This document shows, one piece after another, positions 3,359-62,971 of a DNA stretch of 64,000 nt (within the stretch, counting starts at the first letter, position 1; every line of letters starts with the position of its first letter). The notes beneath the pieces are model-generated. The model was not told the origin of the DNA, made no database searches, and worked only from the letters and a program-made list of their open reading frames with translations. Where the stretch lies: positions 2,170,001 through 2,234,000 of the forward strand of contig NZ_JADPMV010000001.1 of NCBI RefSeq assembly GCF_018398425.1, written 5' to 3'. A program made the position numbers and the translations under genes. Source of the stretch: Pseudomonas lalucatii. Its GTDB lineage: Bacteria > Pseudomonadota > Gammaproteobacteria > Pseudomonadales > Pseudomonadaceae.

Positions 3359-4531
3359 ATGCCCCAAGCTCTGAGTACGGACATTCTGATCGTCGGCGGC
3401 GGCATCGCCGGCCTCTGGCTGAACGCGCGCCTGCGTCGCCAGGGTTTCGCCACCCTGCTGGTGGAAAACGCCAGCCTCGGCGGCGGGCAGAGCGTCAAGT
3501 CCCAGGGGATCATCCACGGCGGCGCCAAGTACGCCCTGCACGGCGCCCTGACCGGCGCCTCGGAGGCCATCGCCGACATGCCGCGGCGCTGGCGCGAGGC
3601 GCTGGCCGGCAGCGGCGAGCTGGACCTGTCCGGCGTGCGCCTGCTGTCCGAGGCCCACTACCTGTGGTCCCCCGGCAGCCTGGCCGGCAACCTGACCAGC
3701 TTCTTCGCCAGCAAGGCGGTGCGCGGCCGGGTCGACCAGGTCAAGGGCGAGCAGCTGCCGCCGGCGCTGCAGCATCCCAGGTTCAAGGGCAAGGTCTATC
3801 GCCTGGCCGAGCTGGTGCTCGACGTGCCCAGCCTGATCGCCCGCCTGGCCGAACTGGCCGGCGACGGCCTGCTGGCCGCCGAGCGCATCGAGCCGCTGCG
3901 CGAGCAGGGCGAGCTGGCCGGCCTGCGCGTCGACGGCCGGGATATTCGCGCCCAGCGCATCGTGCTCAGCGCCGGCCGCGGCAACGCCGAGCTGCTCGCC
4001 GCCCTGGGCCTCGAACAGCCCGCCCAGCAGCTGCGCCCGCTGCACATGGTGCTGGTCAAGGGGCCGAGCCTCAAACCGCTGTATGCCCACTGCCTGGGCG
4101 GCGGGCCGAAGCCGCGGGTCACCGTCACCAGCCACCCGGCGGCCGATGGCCAATGGGTCTGGTACCTGGGCGGCGACCTGGCCGAGGCCGACGGCGTGGC
4201 CCGCGACGAGGCCGCGCAGATCCGGGCGGCGCAGCAGGAACTCGGCAACCTGCTGCCCTGGCTCGACCTCGGCAGCGCGCAGTGGGCCACCCTGCGGGTC
4301 GAACGCGCCGAGCCCGCGCAATCCGGCCTGGTGCGCCCGGACAACGCCTTCCTCGCCGAACAGCAGCGCCTGCTGGTCGGCTGGCCGACTAAACTGGCCT
4401 TGGCACCGGACTTCGCCGACCGCGTGCTGGCGACCCTGGCGCGGGACGGCATCCGCCCCGCCGAGCATCCGCCGCTGCCGGCGCTGCCGCGCCCGGCCAT
4501 CGCCCACCCCGCCTGGGAGGACCTGTTCTGA
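3359..4531 (+). CDS. FAD-dependent oxidoreductase, DAO (glycine oxidase-like) family
   Basis: A 390-residue protein starting with a Rossmann FAD-binding motif (ILIVGGGIAGLWLNARL, residues ~10-26) followed by GGGQSVKSQGIIHGG, the second FAD contact region of the D-amino acid oxidase superfamily. The family oxidises amines or amino acids to imines, but no specific substrate can be assigned. The stop overlaps the next start (TGATG), so it is translationally coupled to the aldo/keto reductase. The same oxidoreductase-reductase pair is found at this place in P. aeruginosa. Confidence 0.85.
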   Translation: MPQALSTDILIVGGGIAGLWLNARLRRQGFATLLVENASLGGGQSVKSQGIIHGGAKYALHGALTGASEAIADMPRRWREALAGSGELDLSGVRLLSEAHYLWSPGSLAGNLTSFFASKAVRGRVDQVKGEQLPPALQHPRFKGKVYRLAELVLDVPSLIARLAELAGDGLLAAERIEPLREQGELAGLRVDGRDIRAQRIVLSAGRGNAELLAALGLEQPAQQLRPLHMVLVKGPSLKPLYAHCLGGGPKPRVTVTSHPAADGQWVWYLGGDLAEADGVARDEAAQIRAAQQELGNLLPWLDLGSAQWATLRVERAEPAQSGLVRPDNAFLAEQQRLLVGWPTKLALAPDFADRVLATLARDGIRPAEHPPLPALPRPAIAHPAWEDLF

Positions 4532-41707: not shown

Positions 41708-42347
41708 CGGGACTCCCTCGGGACGAGGGCGCAGTGTAACCGCCCGCGGCCGCGGGCGACGACCCGAAACACCAACTGTGGCATGCTCGTGGCCCCGCCA
41801 CACTGCGGCCAAGGAGGCCCCATGAGCCTGCCAGAATTGCTCGGCTGCGAACTGCCCATCATCCAGGCGCCCATGGCCGGCGCCCAGGACCAGCGCCTGG
41901 CCAGCGCCGTGTGCCAGGCCGGCGGCCTCGGCTCGCTGCCGGCCGCCATGCTCGACGCCGCCGGCCTGCGCACGCAGCTGCTGGCCCTGCGCGAGGCGAC
42001 CGACCAGCCGTGCAACCTGAACTTCTTCTGCCATGCCCAGCCGCCGGCGGATGCGGCCCGCGAGGCGACCTGGCGCGAGCGGCTGGCGCCCTTCTACGCC
42101 GAGTTCGGCGTCGACCCCGCCAGCATCCCCGCCGGCCCCGGGCGCCAGCCATTCGACGCGGCCATGGCCGAGTTGGTGGAGGAACTGCGCCCGGAGGTGG
42201 TCAGCTTCCACTTCGGCCTGCCACAGGCCGCGCTGCTGGAGCGGGTACGGGCCAGCGGGGCGAAGATCCTCGGCTGCGCCACCACGGTGGCCGAGGCCCT
42301 GTGGCTGGAGGCCCGCGGCGTCGACGCGATCATCGCCCAGGGCCAGG

Positions 42348-42430
42348 GCGGCCGGGGTGCAGGTCGGCAGCGCCTACCTGCTGTGCCCCGAGGCCGGCAC
42401 CAGCGCGGTGCATCGCGCCGCCCTGCAGAG
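42348..42430 (+). repeat. Copy 1 of an exact 83-bp direct repeat inside the nitronate monooxygenase gene
   Basis: Begins GCGGCCGGGGTGCAG and ends GCCGCCCTGCAGAG. It is identical over all 83 bases to 42514-42596. This copy replaces the expected EAGGHRG-encoding segment and causes the frameshift. Confidence 0.97.
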
Positions 42431-42513
42431 TGGCGGCGGCGGTGCGCCTGCCGGTGATCGCCGCCGGCGGCATCGCCGACGCCCGCGGCGTGGCGGCCGC
42501 CCTGGCCCTGGGC

Positions 42514-42596
42514 GCGGCCGGGGTGCAGGTCGGCAGCGCCTACCTGCTGTGCCCCGAGGCCGGCACCAGCGCGGTGCATCGCGCCGCCCTGCAGAG
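42514..42596 (+). repeat. Copy 2 of the 83-bp direct repeat (native position)
   Basis: In-frame native copy encoding AAGVQVGSAYLLCPEAGTSA and the following HRAALQS. The two copies are separated by exactly 83 bp (42431-42513), so the repeat period is 166 bp. Confidence 0.97.
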
Positions 42597-42898
42597 CGAG
42601 GCGGCCCGGCACACGGCGCTGACCACCCTGTTCAGCGGCCGGCCGGCACGGGGCATCGTCAACCGCCTGATGCGCAGCCTCGGCGCCATGCCCGCCGAAG
42701 TGCCGGCCTTCCCCCTGGCCGCGGCCGCCATCGCGCCCCTGCGCGCCGCCGCCGAACGCCAGGGCCTGGGCGACTGCTCGCCGCTCTGGGCCGGGCAGAA
42801 CCTGGCCGGCTGCCGGCCCGTCGGCGCCGCCCAGCTGACCCGCGAACTGGCCGCCGGGCTGGCCATGTGAACCTCCATCACGGCCATGGATAGTGCTG

Positions 42899-42919
42899 GG
42901 CAGCCGCAAACCGGCTGCC
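42899..42919. terminator. Stem-loop between the nitronate monooxygenase remnant and the acyl-CoA dehydrogenase
   Basis: GGCAGCCG, CAAAC loop, CGGCTGCC: a perfect 8-bp hairpin 29 bases after the remnant's stop and 32 before the next ATG. No T-run, so termination would be inefficient or rho-dependent. Confidence 0.5.
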
Positions 42920-42951
42920 TAGACTCGCCCCCATCATCTGGAGGCCCGCCC

Positions 42952-44754
42952 ATGTCCGAGACCCTGCTCAGCTCCCGCAACCTGGCGTTCGAACTCTACG
43001 AGGTGCTGGACGCCGAAGCCCTGACCCGCCGCGAACGCTTCGCCGAACACAACCGCGAGACCTTCGACGCCGCCCTGACCACCGCCCGCGGCATCGCCGA
43101 GACGCTGTTCGCCCCGCACAACCGCAAGAACGACGAGCACGAGCCGCAGTACGTCGACGGCGCGGCGCAGCTGATCCCGGAGGTGAAGCCGGCGGTGGAC
43201 GCCTTCCTCGCGGCCGGCTTCCTCAATGCCACCCGCGACTTCGAGGCCGGCGGCATGCAGCTGCCCAACCTGCTGTCGCAGGCCTGCTTCGCCCACTTCC
43301 AGGCGGCCAACGCGGCGACCAGCTCCTACCCCTTCCTGACCATGGGCGCGGCCAACCTGATCGAGAGCTTCGGCAGTGCGGAGCAGAAGCGCCGCTTCCT
43401 GCAGCCGATGATCGAGGGCCGCTGCTTCGGCACCATGGCCCTGACCGAGCCCCACGCCGGCTCCTCCCTGGCGGACATCCGCACCCGCGCCGAGCCGGCG
43501 GCCGACGGCAGCTATCGCCTCCGCGGCAACAAGATCTTCATCTCCGCCGGCGACCACCCCCTGAGCGAGAACATCGTGCACATGGTGCTGGCCAAGCTGC
43601 CGGACGCGCCGCCCGGGGTGAAGGGCATCAGCCTGTTCATCGTGCCCAAGTTCCTGGTGGACGAGGACGGCAACCTGGGCCCGCGCAACGACGTGACCCT
43701 GGCCGGGCTGTTCCACAAGATGGGCTGGCGCGGCACCACCTCCACCGCGCTGAACTTCGGCGACAACGGCCAGTGCGTCGGCTACCTGGTGGGCCAGCCG
43801 CACCAGGGCCTGTCCTACATGTTCCAGATGATGAACGAGGCGCGCATCGGCGTCGGCATGGGCGCGGTGATGCTCGGCTACGCCGGCTACCTCTACTCCC
43901 TGGACTACGCCCGCAACCGCCCCCAGGGCCGCCAGCCCGACGGCAAGAACCCGAGCAGCCCGCAGGTGGCGATCGTCGAGCACGCCGACGTGCGGCGCAT
44001 GCTGCTGGCGCAGAAGGCCTACGTCGAGGGCGCCTTCGACCTCGGCCTGTACGCCGCGCGCCTGTTCGACGACACCCAGACCCTGGCGAGCGCAGCTGAA
44101 CGGGCGCAGGCGCTGGAGCTGCTCGACCTGCTCACCCCGATCGTCAAGTCCTGGCCCTCGGAGTTCTGCCTCAAGGCCAACGAACTGGCCGTGCAGATCC
44201 TCGGCGGCCACGGCTACACCCGCGACTACCCGGTGGAGCAGTACTACCGCGACAACCGCCTCAACCCCATCCACGAGGGCACCCACGGTATCCAGTCGCT
44301 GGACCTGCTCGGGCGCAAGGTGGCGATGAACGGCGGCGCCGCGCTCAAGCGATTGCTCAGGCTGATCCTCGACTGCTGCCAGCGGGCCGCCGCGTTCGAG
44401 TCGCTGAGCGCGCTGCGTCAACCGCTGGAACAGCTGCTGGCGCGCCTGCAGGCGGTGACCCTGGCCCTGCTGGGCGACCTGATGAGCGGCAAGGTCAATC
44501 GGGGCCTGGCCAACTCGGCGCTGTACCTCAAGGTGTTCGGCCACACGGTGATCGGCTGGCGCTGGCTGGAACAGGCGATTCGCGCCGAGCAGGGCCTGGC
44601 CGGCGGCCAGGCGGCCGACCGCGACTTCTACCAGGGCAAGCTGCAGGCCGCGCGCTACTTCCTGACCTGGGAGGTGCCGGCCTGCCAGCACGAACTGGCC
44701 CTGCTCGAGGCCCGCGACGCGACCTGCCTGGACATGCGGGACGCCTGGTTCTGA
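42952..44754 (+). CDS. Acyl-CoA dehydrogenase with C-terminal extension
   Basis: A 600-residue flavoprotein of the long acyl-CoA dehydrogenase type used in fatty-acid or dicarboxylate beta-oxidation. [23 protein letters not shown] FAD/substrate contacts are seen as [17 protein letters not shown], with [16 protein letters not shown] and the catalytic Glu region [19 protein letters not shown]. The ~200 residues after the core form the helical extension found in this subfamily. Substrate chain length is not readable. The ATG at 42952 has GGAG at 42940-42943. Confidence 0.92.
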
Positions 44755-54300: not shown

Positions 54301-54332
54301 TCACCCACGCCCAGCTAGCGGCGACCGCGGCT

Positions 54333-54404
54333 GTCGGTCGGCATGGCGCTAACCGACGCCAGCCTCGGCGAGCCGGATCCGCTGCGAACGAGCCCTCGAG
54401 GCTG
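54333..54404. terminator. Stem-loops in the convergent gap after the SLC13 gene
   Basis: GTCGGT (54333-54338) with ACCGAC (54352-54357), then CAGCCTCG (54360-54367) with CGAGGCTG (54397-54404). They fill the 122-bp convergent gap. No T-run is seen, so any termination is probably weak or rho-dependent. Confidence 0.4.
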
Positions 54405-54422
54405 AGGCCCGGACCGCCGCGC

Positions 54423-55295
54423 TCAGGCCACCGCGCGGGCAGGCGCCAGGCCGAGGGCGTGCTCCAACCAGGCCAGCTGCTCATCCCACAGCCCGCGCGG
54501 GGTATCGCGGCGGAAGAAGCCGAAGTGCCCGAGTCCGCTCAGCCCCCAGTGCGCCGGCGCGACCACCCGCACCTCGCGGCGTGCCGCCGGGTAGAACGCG
54601 GCCAGCGCCTCCACCGCCTGGCGCGGGGCGAAGGCCAGGTCATCGTCGATCACCAGAAACCGCGCCGGCCCTAGCAGCTCGGCGAAGTGCGGGCGCCAGG
54701 CACGGCCGTCCGGCGTGGCGATGAAGGCCGGCGTGCGGCACCAGCGCGCCCACTCCAGCGCCACCTCCCGCGGCAGCGCCTCGCCGCCCATGACCCAGCC
54801 CGGCAGCCGGCCGCAGGCGCGAGTGAGCAGCGGAATCAGCGCATACCAGTTGAGCGCCAGGCGCCACTGCCGGCGCGCCGGCCACAGGCGCCAGTAGCCG
54901 GACTGGGCGGCCACGCCGAGCAGCGCCCGGATGCGCCCGGCGTTGTCGGCCAGGCCCGGCAACTGCCCGCCCACCGAGTGGCCGAGTACCGCCAGCGGCA
55001 GGTCGGCGGGCAGGTGGTCGAGCAGGCTCGCCAGATCGATGCGCCCCCAGTCGGCCATGCACGGGGCCGGCCCCTGCCAGGTCGCCGAGCGGCTGGCGCC
55101 GATGCCGCGGTAGTCGTAGGTGAATACCCAGGCGCCGCGCTCGGCCGCGTGCTCGGCAAAGCTGCGGTAGAAACGCTGGGCGACGCCGGTGGCGCCGTTC
55201 AGCAACAGGCAGTAGCGCGGCAGTGCCGGGCGGAAGGCGCTGACGGCGAGCGGGTGACCATCGCGGGCGGGCAAGGTGTAGCTGTCGAAACGCAT
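54423..55295 (-). CDS. Alpha/beta hydrolase
   Basis: A 290-residue alpha/beta-hydrolase-fold protein. The nucleophile elbow is LAVLGHSVGGQLPG (Ser in GHSVG), the oxyanion region is LLLNGATGVAQRFYRSFA, and FTYDYRGIGAS is typical of the fold. A C-terminal acid/His pair is plausible in PAHWGLSGLGHFGFFRR. Likely an esterase, lipase or dienelactone-like hydrolase; no substrate can be named. The ATG at 55295 has GGAGGAG upstream. It lies 63 bp downstream of the same-strand LysR gene. Confidence 0.85.
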   Translation of the reverse strand: MRFDSYTLPARDGHPLAVSAFRPALPRYCLLLNGATGVAQRFYRSFAEHAAERGAWVFTYDYRGIGASRSATWQGPAPCMADWGRIDLASLLDHLPADLPLAVLGHSVGGQLPGLADNAGRIRALLGVAAQSGYWRLWPARRQWRLALNWYALIPLLTRACGRLPGWVMGGEALPREVALEWARWCRTPAFIATPDGRAWRPHFAELLGPARFLVIDDDLAFAPRQAVEALAAFYPAARREVRVVAPAHWGLSGLGHFGFFRRDTPRGLWDEQLAWLEHALGLAPARAVA

Positions 55296-55358
55296 GGCGG
55301 ACTCCTCCTGTGCAGGCCGCCACTCTTGCCGGCCGTCGCCGAGGAGAAAAGCGAGATT

Positions 55359-56249
55359 TCAGCCCTCCAGGGCTGAGAAAAACTCAGCGCTACGAGTCTC
55401 CATCCCGGCCAGGCGCGCCTCCAGCCAGTCGACCACCCGCAGCAGCGCCGGGCTCTGCGCCGTGGCCGGCCAGACCGCCCACAGCGCCCCGCCGCTGACC
55501 CGCCGCCCCGGCCACAGCGGCCGCAGGCCGCCGCCCTGCAACGCGTCGATGCACAGCGGCAGAAAGCCGATGGCCACCCCCAGCCCCTGCTCGGCGGCGC
55601 TCAGCACCGCCGCGTAGCTGTCCAGCTCCAGGCCGTCGGCCGCCGGTTGCCAACCGTACGCCGCGGCCCACTGCTCCCAGCTGTGCCGCTCCTGGCTCAG
55701 GCGGATCGGCAGCAGATCGTCCGGCGGCGGCCAGGACACCTCCGGAAAGCCCGCGGCCACCAGCGGCGCCAGTTGAAAACCGCTCAGGCGCCGGGCGCAC
55801 AGCGCGCCCCAGTCCGCCGGATCGACGGCGAAGCGCAGGCCGAGGTCGATGCCATGGCCTTCCAGGTCGAGGATTTCGCGGCGGGTGTCGAGGCTCAGCA
55901 GGCGCTCGCCGAGCAGCCCCTGCAGTTCCCCCAGCGCAGGCAGCACCACGGCCTGGGCGAGGAAGGGAAAGCTGGATAGGCGGAACGGCCGCCGCACCTG
56001 GCGCGCCCGGGTGGCGCTCTCCAGCTGGCGAATCGCCGGCGCCACCTCGGCCCAGAACGAGCGCCCGGCGTCGGTCAGCGCCAGGCCGCGGGGCAGGCGC
56101 TGGAACAGCTTGCAGTCCAGCGCCGCCTCCAGCTCGCGCAACTGGTGGCTGACCGCCGTCGGTGTGACATGCAGCCGTTCGGCGGCGCGCTTGACGCTGA
56201 GGGTGTCGCCGAGCACGGCGAAGGTGCGCAGTAGATTCAACGATGCCAT
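55359..56249 (-). CDS. LysR-family transcriptional regulator (GcvA-like)
   Basis: A 296-residue LTTR. The helix-turn-helix is LLRTFAVLGDTLSVKRAAERL...VTPTAVSHQLRELE (residues ~5-50), resembling the GcvA/AmpR branch. The remaining effector domain is ordinary in length. The ATG at 56249 (MASLNLLRTF) has GGAGG just upstream; the frame continues seven codons farther. It is divergent from trxC across 79 bp and upstream of the hydrolase, so either could be a target. Confidence 0.9.
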   Translation of the reverse strand: MASLNLLRTFAVLGDTLSVKRAAERLHVTPTAVSHQLRELEAALDCKLFQRLPRGLALTDAGRSFWAEVAPAIRQLESATRARQVRRPFRLSSFPFLAQAVVLPALGELQGLLGERLLSLDTRREILDLEGHGIDLGLRFAVDPADWGALCARRLSGFQLAPLVAAGFPEVSWPPPDDLLPIRLSQERHSWEQWAAAYGWQPAADGLELDSYAAVLSAAEQGLGVAIGFLPLCIDALQGGGLRPLWPGRRVSGGALWAVWPATAQSPALLRVVDWLEARLAGMETRSAEFFSALEG

Positions 56250-61310: not shown

Positions 61311-62971
61311 ACTGGATCGCCCCCTCCCGGCTGCTGCTGCCTGCCGATGCCCCACGCCCGGTCTGCCCCGACCTCGACCACGCCGAGCTGTGCCGGCGCG
61401 CCCTGGGCCTGGCGGCCTGGCTGCGCGAACGCGACGTCCGCCGCGTCGCCCTGTACCTGGACGACGCCGCCTACCTGGCCATCGCCCTGCTCGCCGCCTG
61501 GCGCGCCGGCGCCCAGGTGCTGCTGCCGGCCGACGCCCAGGCGCAGACCCGCCGGCGCCTGGCCGGGCAGCTTGACCTGTGGCTCGATGCGCTGGACCCC
61601 GCCGCCACCGCCGCACCCCTGCCCGCCGCGGCCCTGGACCCCGAGCGCTGCCGCCTGACCCTGTGCACCTCCGGCTCCAGCGGCGAGGCCAAGCCGATCG
61701 ACAAGTCCCTGGGCCAGCTGGCCAACGAGGTCGAGGCGCTGGAGCGGCTGTGGGGCGCCAGCCTCGGCGCGGCGACCATTATCGGCAGCGTCGCCGCCCA
61801 GCATATCTACGGCCTGCTGTTCCGCGTGCTCTGGCCGCTGTGCGCCGGCCGCCCGTTCCTGCGGCGCGCCCTGCCGTTCCCCGAGGACCTGCAGCGCGCC
61901 AGCCTGGAGGCGCCGTCCGGCTTCGCCTGGGTGGCCAGCCCGGCCCTGCTCAAGCGCATGGGCGACAACCTCGACTGGCCCGCCCTGGCCCCGGTGCGCC
62001 GGGTCTTTTCCTCCGGCGGCGCGCTGCCGGCGGAGGCCGCCGCCACGCTGCAGACCCGCCTGGGGCAGTGGCCCACGGAAATCTACGGCAGCTCGGAAAC
62101 CGGCGGCGTCGCCTGGCGCCAGGGCAGCGAACCCTGGCACCCCTTCGCCGGGGTCGAACCGAGCCTGAACGCCGACGGCGCCCTGCGTATCGCCTCGCCC
62201 TATTTACCGGGCGGACACCGCGAACAGACGGCCGACGCCGCCGAGCTGCTGGCCGACGGCCGTTTCATCCTGCGCGGGCGCCTCGACCGCATCGTCAAGC
62301 TGGAGGAAAAGCGCATCGCCCTGCCCAGCCTCGAGCAGGCCCTGCTGGACCACGCCTGGGTCGCCGACGTCCGCCTCGGCGTGGTCCAGCAGGGCCGCGC
62401 CTACCTCGGCGCCCTGGTCGCCCTGAGCCCGGCCGGCGTGCATGCGCTGCGCAACCAGGGCCGGCGCGCCCTCACCGAGGCGCTGCGCCGGCACCTGTCC
62501 GGACACTGCGAAACCATCGCCCTGCCGCGGCGCTGGCGCCTGCTGCGCGAACTGCCCTACAACAGCCAGGGCAAGCTGGTCCAGACAAGCGTCGATGCCC
62601 TGATCGCCGCGCCCAGGCCGACCCGGGTCGAACCCCAGTCGGCGCTCGAGCAGGACGGCGAGTGGCGCCTGGAGCTGGAGGTGCCGCTGGACCTGGCGCA
62701 CTTCTCCGGCCACTTCCCGCAGACCCCGGTGCTGCCCGGCGTGGTGCAGATCGACTGGGCCCAGCAGCTGGCGCGCCGCCTCATCCCCGGGCTGCCGCCG
62801 CGCTTCGTCGGCATGGAGGTGCTGAAGTTCCAGCAGCTGGTGCGTCCCGGCGACCGGGTGCAGCTGGCCCTGCGTTTCGACGCCGAGCGCGGCAAGCTGT
62901 ATTTCGCTTTCCGCAACGGCGAGGCGGCCTGCGCCTCCGGCCGCATCCTGCTGCAGGCCGCCCATGCATAG
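61307..62971 (+). CDS. AMP-dependent acyl/aryl-ACP ligase fused to a hotdog dehydratase domain
   Basis: A 554-residue two-domain protein. Residues ~1-445 are an ANL adenylating enzyme: [16 protein letters not shown] (phosphate loop), [13 protein letters not shown], and the catalytic Lys in [14 protein letters not shown]. The last ~100 residues form a FabZ/ApeI-like hotdog dehydratase with [19 protein letters not shown]. It would load the aromatic starter (for example 4-hydroxybenzoate) onto the ACP and dehydrate intermediates. In E. coli ApeH and ApeI are separate proteins. I use the ATG at 61307; the longer frame is a shadow. Confidence 0.9.

Follow-up and report, generated by a model that had tools for sequence, protein, structure and literature searches.

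The class of mutation to which the present case would belong is already known, and the case would be a further example of it. Its closest described relative is the quasipalindrome-associated template-switch mutation, presented in PMC7202029 with Ripley (1982) and the thyA hotspot of E. coli; in such an event, one arm of an imperfect local inverted repeat serves as the template for the other, so that the repeat becomes perfect and longer. The four-point model of short-range template switching of Loytynoja and Goldman, as presented in PMC7954356, which is concerned with great apes and not with bacteria, places a reverse-complement segment between two switches. In FoSTeS/MMBIR, serial switches with short homology give duplications mixed with deletions and inverted pieces, and the joints of lac amplification in E. 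coli measure 2-15 bp, both according to the description in PMC2621351. In addition, the inverted repeats involved in the template switching of yeast have, in the cases given in PMC8604942, shorter spacers than the one reported below.

The locus compared here with these systems is a gene for nitronate monooxygenase of Pseudomonas lalucatii, and it lies in the window, i.e. the whole 64,000-nt stretch of DNA that was analysed. The species description is reportedly that of Busquets 2021, and a literature search at the level of titles found no paper on this locus.

Results

The assignment of the gene to nitronate monooxygenase and its inactivation, both put forward in the sequence-only reading, were borne out by the profile search. 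PF03060 scores 100.2 bits over residues 5-177 of the 211-aa frame (Table 1), while the gene as a whole is matched in two pieces lying in two frames (profile positions 6-167 and 188-329), the frame of the start codon being stopped at 42455-42457. In a functional PF03060 gene, a single open frame would cover the entire profile and include EAGGHRG; here, no such frame was found and the segment is absent. The intact 347-aa nitronate monooxygenase of P. lalucatii, designated P0001, agrees with the window at 174 + 146 = 320 of the 320 comparable residues, an identity that would place the window in this species, and its middle 27 residues, LEAGGHRGLFLDAELSTQLGTFALLPQ (81 nt), stand against 86 nt in the window (42344-42429). 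The net difference is +5 nt, which is +2 in frame. The earlier reading had therefore been right in proposing a replacement instead of a simple tandem insertion and a frame shift of +2, and its figure of about 26 lost codons including EAGGHRG only needs to be corrected to 27. Among solved structures, P0001 is best matched by PDB 5lsm, an FMN-dependent nitronate monooxygenase, over residues 3-344 (451 bits, EAGGHRG included), whereas the gene of the window lacks both this segment and the in-frame C-terminal half. A 211-aa product was not found among the 120 proteins listed of the 7998 scored under the threshold.

Table 1. Features of the altered nitronate monooxygenase gene (positions in the window)
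Feature	Positions	Strand	Remarks
Broken nitronate monooxygenase frame, 211 aa (174 native + 37 out-of-frame residues)	41822..42457	+	ATG 41822, TGA 42455-42457; PF03060
Intact N-terminal part, 174 aa	41822..42343	+	Identical to P. lalucatii P0001
Left arm of the 21-nt inverted repeat	42334..42354	+	42334-42343 native; 42344 (C) taken as native
10 nt, reverse complement of 42494-42503	42345..42354	+	Initial AGG matches neither X nor native L120 sequence
Ectopic copy X (83 nt)	42348..42430	+	Replaces 27 native codons LEAGGHRG...LLPQ
C-terminal part, 146 aa + stop	42430..42870	+	Identical to P0001; frame differs from that of the start
Native spacer Y	42431..42513	+	From comparison with relatives
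Right arm of the inverted repeat	42494..42514	+	Pairs with left arm
Native copy of X, the donor	42514..42596	+	Register as in relatives

Direct sequence comparison gave two copies of X (42348-42430 and 42514-42596) identical at 83 of 83 nt, with 83 nt between them and 166 nt from start to start, in agreement with what had been read from the letters. The equality of repeat length and spacer length (83 = 83) looks accidental, since it depends on how the shared bases, 7 nt at the upstream joint and 1 nt at the downstream joint, are assigned; in fact, the donor must supply just 76 nt (42355-42430) once the inverted step described below has been accounted for. The upstream copy is the new one, since the downstream copy stands in the native register. 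Tandem duplication by slippage leaves head-to-tail copies and loses nothing, while here 83 nt lie between the copies and 81 nt have been lost. The donor of X is local. A paralogue was also considered as the source and was rejected, the rest of the genome giving partial matches of 71-90% only.

X is the sole direct repeat family of at least 40 nt found in the 64-kb window (24-nt seeds) and the sole exact repeat of at least 28 nt within 2 kb across 384 kb, i.e. the window and 16 other 20-kb stretches of the same genome. No exact repeat of this kind was found in four 20-kb stretches of a relative, and 2 of 40 loci from other genomes of the genus (L002-L030 and L120-L130, about 149 kb) have one. 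Beside the homologous gene, local exact repeats of 28 nt (L004, 2548/2806) and of 32 nt (L011, 1095/1294) were observed, both outside the matched gene stretch, so that the genus does have local repeats of lesser length.

A total of 398 genomes of the genus were searched, and 34 of them, including the window's own, matched the first half of the gene at E 1e-60 or better. From these 34, 12 loci were fetched, namely the window and 11 others (L120-L130); of the other 22 matching genomes, G008 and G014 were covered through the set L002-L030. Alignment with the orthologous gene of close relatives, which had been suggested as a check on the pseudogene, showed the EAGGHRG segment present and in frame in 11 of the 11 closest fetched relatives, and none of these has the X-Y-X arrangement. 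The segment was also present in 29 of 29 further loci from other genomes (L002-L030), a set drawn partly from the same genomes as the closest one and in which many genes are more distant relatives. Moreover, among the 120 homologous proteins listed, 119 have QGxEAGGH and none has the doubled segment; in P0090, a homologue of 300 aa, the EAGGHRG segment is missing through an independent plain internal deletion. At the level of retained loci (80 kept of 484 confirmed), the EAGGH segment was found in 79 of 80. The strict test, which asks for QGxEAGGH within an open frame no shorter than 300 residues, was passed by 58; of the other 22, 21 have a looser motif within an open stretch of 200 residues or more, two of these 21 being cut by contig ends. 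The event, seen in this genome alone, appears to be recent, since both copies are identical and all flanking residues are identical to those of P0001.

A perfect 21-nt inverted repeat spans the upstream joint, and the last base of its right arm is also the first of the donor copy. The left arm is composed of 11 nt that fit the native gene (42334-42344), 7 nt that fit X (42348-42354) and, between them, AGG (42345-42347), which fits the inverted template only; the last of the 11 bases, the C at 42344, is taken as native because it agrees with the Leu codon that P0001 and the 11 relatives have here. At this joint, the closest relative, L120, reads CAGGGC CTGGAGGCCGGCGG and the window CAGGGC CAGGGCGGCCGGGG. 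The sequence-only reading had proposed template switching or non-reciprocal conversion at GGCCGG. Template switching stands as the leading idea, and what has to be given up is the direct join at GGCCGG, which would keep the L120-type bases CTGGAGGCCGG before that motif, where the window has C-AGGGC-GGCCGG. A strand switch at the inverted repeat, which is absent from that reading, would be the better account, because AGGGCGGCCG is the reverse complement of 42494-42503.

Only AGG among the 64 possible trinucleotides gives 21 nt at the joint, and when joints were placed at random in the gene and given three random bases, an inverted match of at least 21 nt arose in 1 of 5,000 and in 0 of 20,000 trials, in a randomisation test designed after the repeat had been seen. 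As in quasipalindrome mutations, the bases gained match a neighbouring stretch in reverse complement and turn an imperfect repeat into a perfect one, the ancestral 11-nt state being reconstructed from the P0001 protein and from the DNA of L120 (94% identical over the first half), not from conspecific DNA. The arms are now 139 nt apart, and would have been about 154 nt apart in this ancestor. Folded as single-stranded DNA, the present and not the ancestral sequence of 42325-42524 has a z of -4.36, with 0 of 200 shuffles as stable. Apart from this repeat, perfect inverted matches of at least 18 nt within 400 nt occur at one place only in the window, at 62339 and 62378. The downstream joint has 1 shared base; an inverted source was tried for it as well and rejected, since no inverted match spans this joint.

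Discussion

Starting from the two copies, the 81-nt replacement and the 21-nt inverted repeat, which are observed, we infer the following path of switching. Synthesis would have reached the end of native CGCCCAGGGCC (42334-42344), where the growing strand would have paired with the 11-nt inverted match at 42504-42514, and about 10 nt of the opposite strand would have been copied (42345-42354 from 42503-42494). The next switch would have taken place at GCGGCCG, in which the palindrome CGGCCG is embedded, and would have led to 42514-42520, where the sequence has the same sense. From there, 76 nt would have been copied (42521-42596 into 42355-42430) before a return, with a 1-nt overlap, to the GTG codon of the native gene at 42430, from where copying would have gone on through Y and X. 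The 27 intervening codons would thus have been lost and the frame moved by +2. This three-switch account explains every base, and the joints of 11 nt (inverted), 7 nt (inverted) and 1 nt would suit template switching. We further infer that the steps occurred in replication, and as one event. That a compound template switch (a change of strand, forward copying from an ectopic site and a return) made the nitronate monooxygenase gene a pseudogene, recently and in this genome alone, is the reading that we hold, with a confidence slightly above even.

Each of the described systems may resemble this path in part. Quasipalindrome mutations arise in replication, with the nascent or the sister strand as template. 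Such a mutation returns beside its point of departure, whereas here there is no return in place: the strand would have come back at 42514-42520, which in the window lies 166 nt further downstream, and 76 nt of same-sense sequence would have been copied there before a second jump back. The four-point model has a reverse-complement segment between two switches in common with this path, and would have to be extended by a same-sense jump back. The serial character of the proposed path may recall FoSTeS/MMBIR as described in PMC2621351, the putative joints being of 11 (inverted), 7 (inverted) and 1 nt, but the whole event here lies within about 260 nt and the last joint has 1 nt only.

A simpler real event can also be considered: the strand would have broken somewhere from 42344 to 42430, a single patch copied from the downstream segment would have closed the break, three bases at the left joint would have had no template, and the inverted match would be accidental. 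It takes fewer steps than a compound switch, the inverted template is needed for 3 bases only (42345-42347), the rest of the 21 nt being common to the native sequence or to X, and the downstream joint, where there is no inverted match, speaks for the patch and against the compound switch alike. A further point against the compound switch is that the 11-nt arms of the reconstructed ancestor, some 154 nt apart, are widely spaced in comparison with the yeast cases of PMC8604942. Nevertheless, the single trinucleotide that gives 21 nt, together with the outcome of the random joints, makes the patch improbable. As for the altered gene being still useful, for example through a truncated or recoded product, this is very unlikely: 37 foreign residues are followed by the stop at 42457, EAGGHRG and the in-frame C-terminal half are lost, the doubled segment is in none of the homologues listed, and no evidence for continued use was found. 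Elsewhere the gene shows no mutation with respect to P0001, which fits recency equally.

More weight has to be given to a sequencing or assembly artefact, which the sequence-only reading had with good reason raised as a misassembly, i.e. a chimeric read or a local gap-fill in a hairpin-capable region of 80% G+C, with an intact gene in the cell; this is a possible explanation, though a doubtful one. The genome is a two-contig draft, G+C is 80% at 42300-42620 vs 69% for the window, and polymerase strand switching is also shown by library amplification. Furthermore, a P. lalucatii contig of 4,619,889 nt encodes the intact protein, identical elsewhere, and is so close that it could even be from the same strain; being intact at the site, this record, the only other one of the species that was seen, also counts against the compound switch. 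For MscK, all 1115 residues of the window's protein are matched identically by the entry P0121. This entry represents a cluster with 4 member sequences and 2 contigs, of which the longest has 4,619,889 nt, so that this contig likely carries the identical MscK. For the sugar transferase, the best entries reach 90-91% under other names, and entries are clustered at 90%, hence they are uninformative on the strain.

Joints sharing only 11 (inverted), 7 and 1 nt are far below assembler word sizes and have too few bases for overlap joining, which argues against an artefact, and so does the lack of a second such repeat in the 384 kb. The reading frames point in the same direction. When all open frames were compared, 9 of 143 proved multi-frame, many of which were judged to be antisense or alternative frames. 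The coding-filtered check started from 58 coding frames in 80 kb of the syntenic relative; 14 of them had no sufficient match in the 64-kb window and were not counted, and 41 of the 44 with a match proved single-frame. The 3 multi-frame cases are this gene, a frame antisense to the frame at 3359-4531 and an upstream extension of the opposite frame (break at 41788-41797), and the latter two were judged by their position to be breaks outside genes. Apart from this question, about 1.9 kb of the window at 54301-56218 gives no alignment above 300 nt at the syntenic place of the relative G206, where some 1.4 kb of different sequence is found.

Conclusions

The enzyme from this gene is probably lost. 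Its loss is probably minor, since the PF03060 cut-off is passed without stops at four other places of the genome (five hits in the profile search of the genome). One of these places is an open frame with EAGGH at C2:1420885-1421868, and some redundancy may be provided by the other PF03060 genes, judging by family membership. Downstream of the broken gene (at 42871-42951) and in the same direction comes a long frame, 42886-44754, which from its appearance we take to be an acyl-CoA dehydrogenase, and the early stop might lower its expression.

If the event is not real, the locus would serve as a warning on pseudogene calls in G+C-rich drafts. As a far more speculative idea, which we regard as rather unlikely, short inverted matches in G+C-rich bacterial genes might seed compound X-Y-X overwrites, a recurrent route to fresh pseudogenes that pipelines enter as frameshifts or assembly errors. 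If the event is real, it would represent a well-resolved compound template switch that took place naturally in a bacterium and is recent enough for the donor, the joints and the inverted repeat to be read from the sequence, and it would supply a search pattern for further cases.
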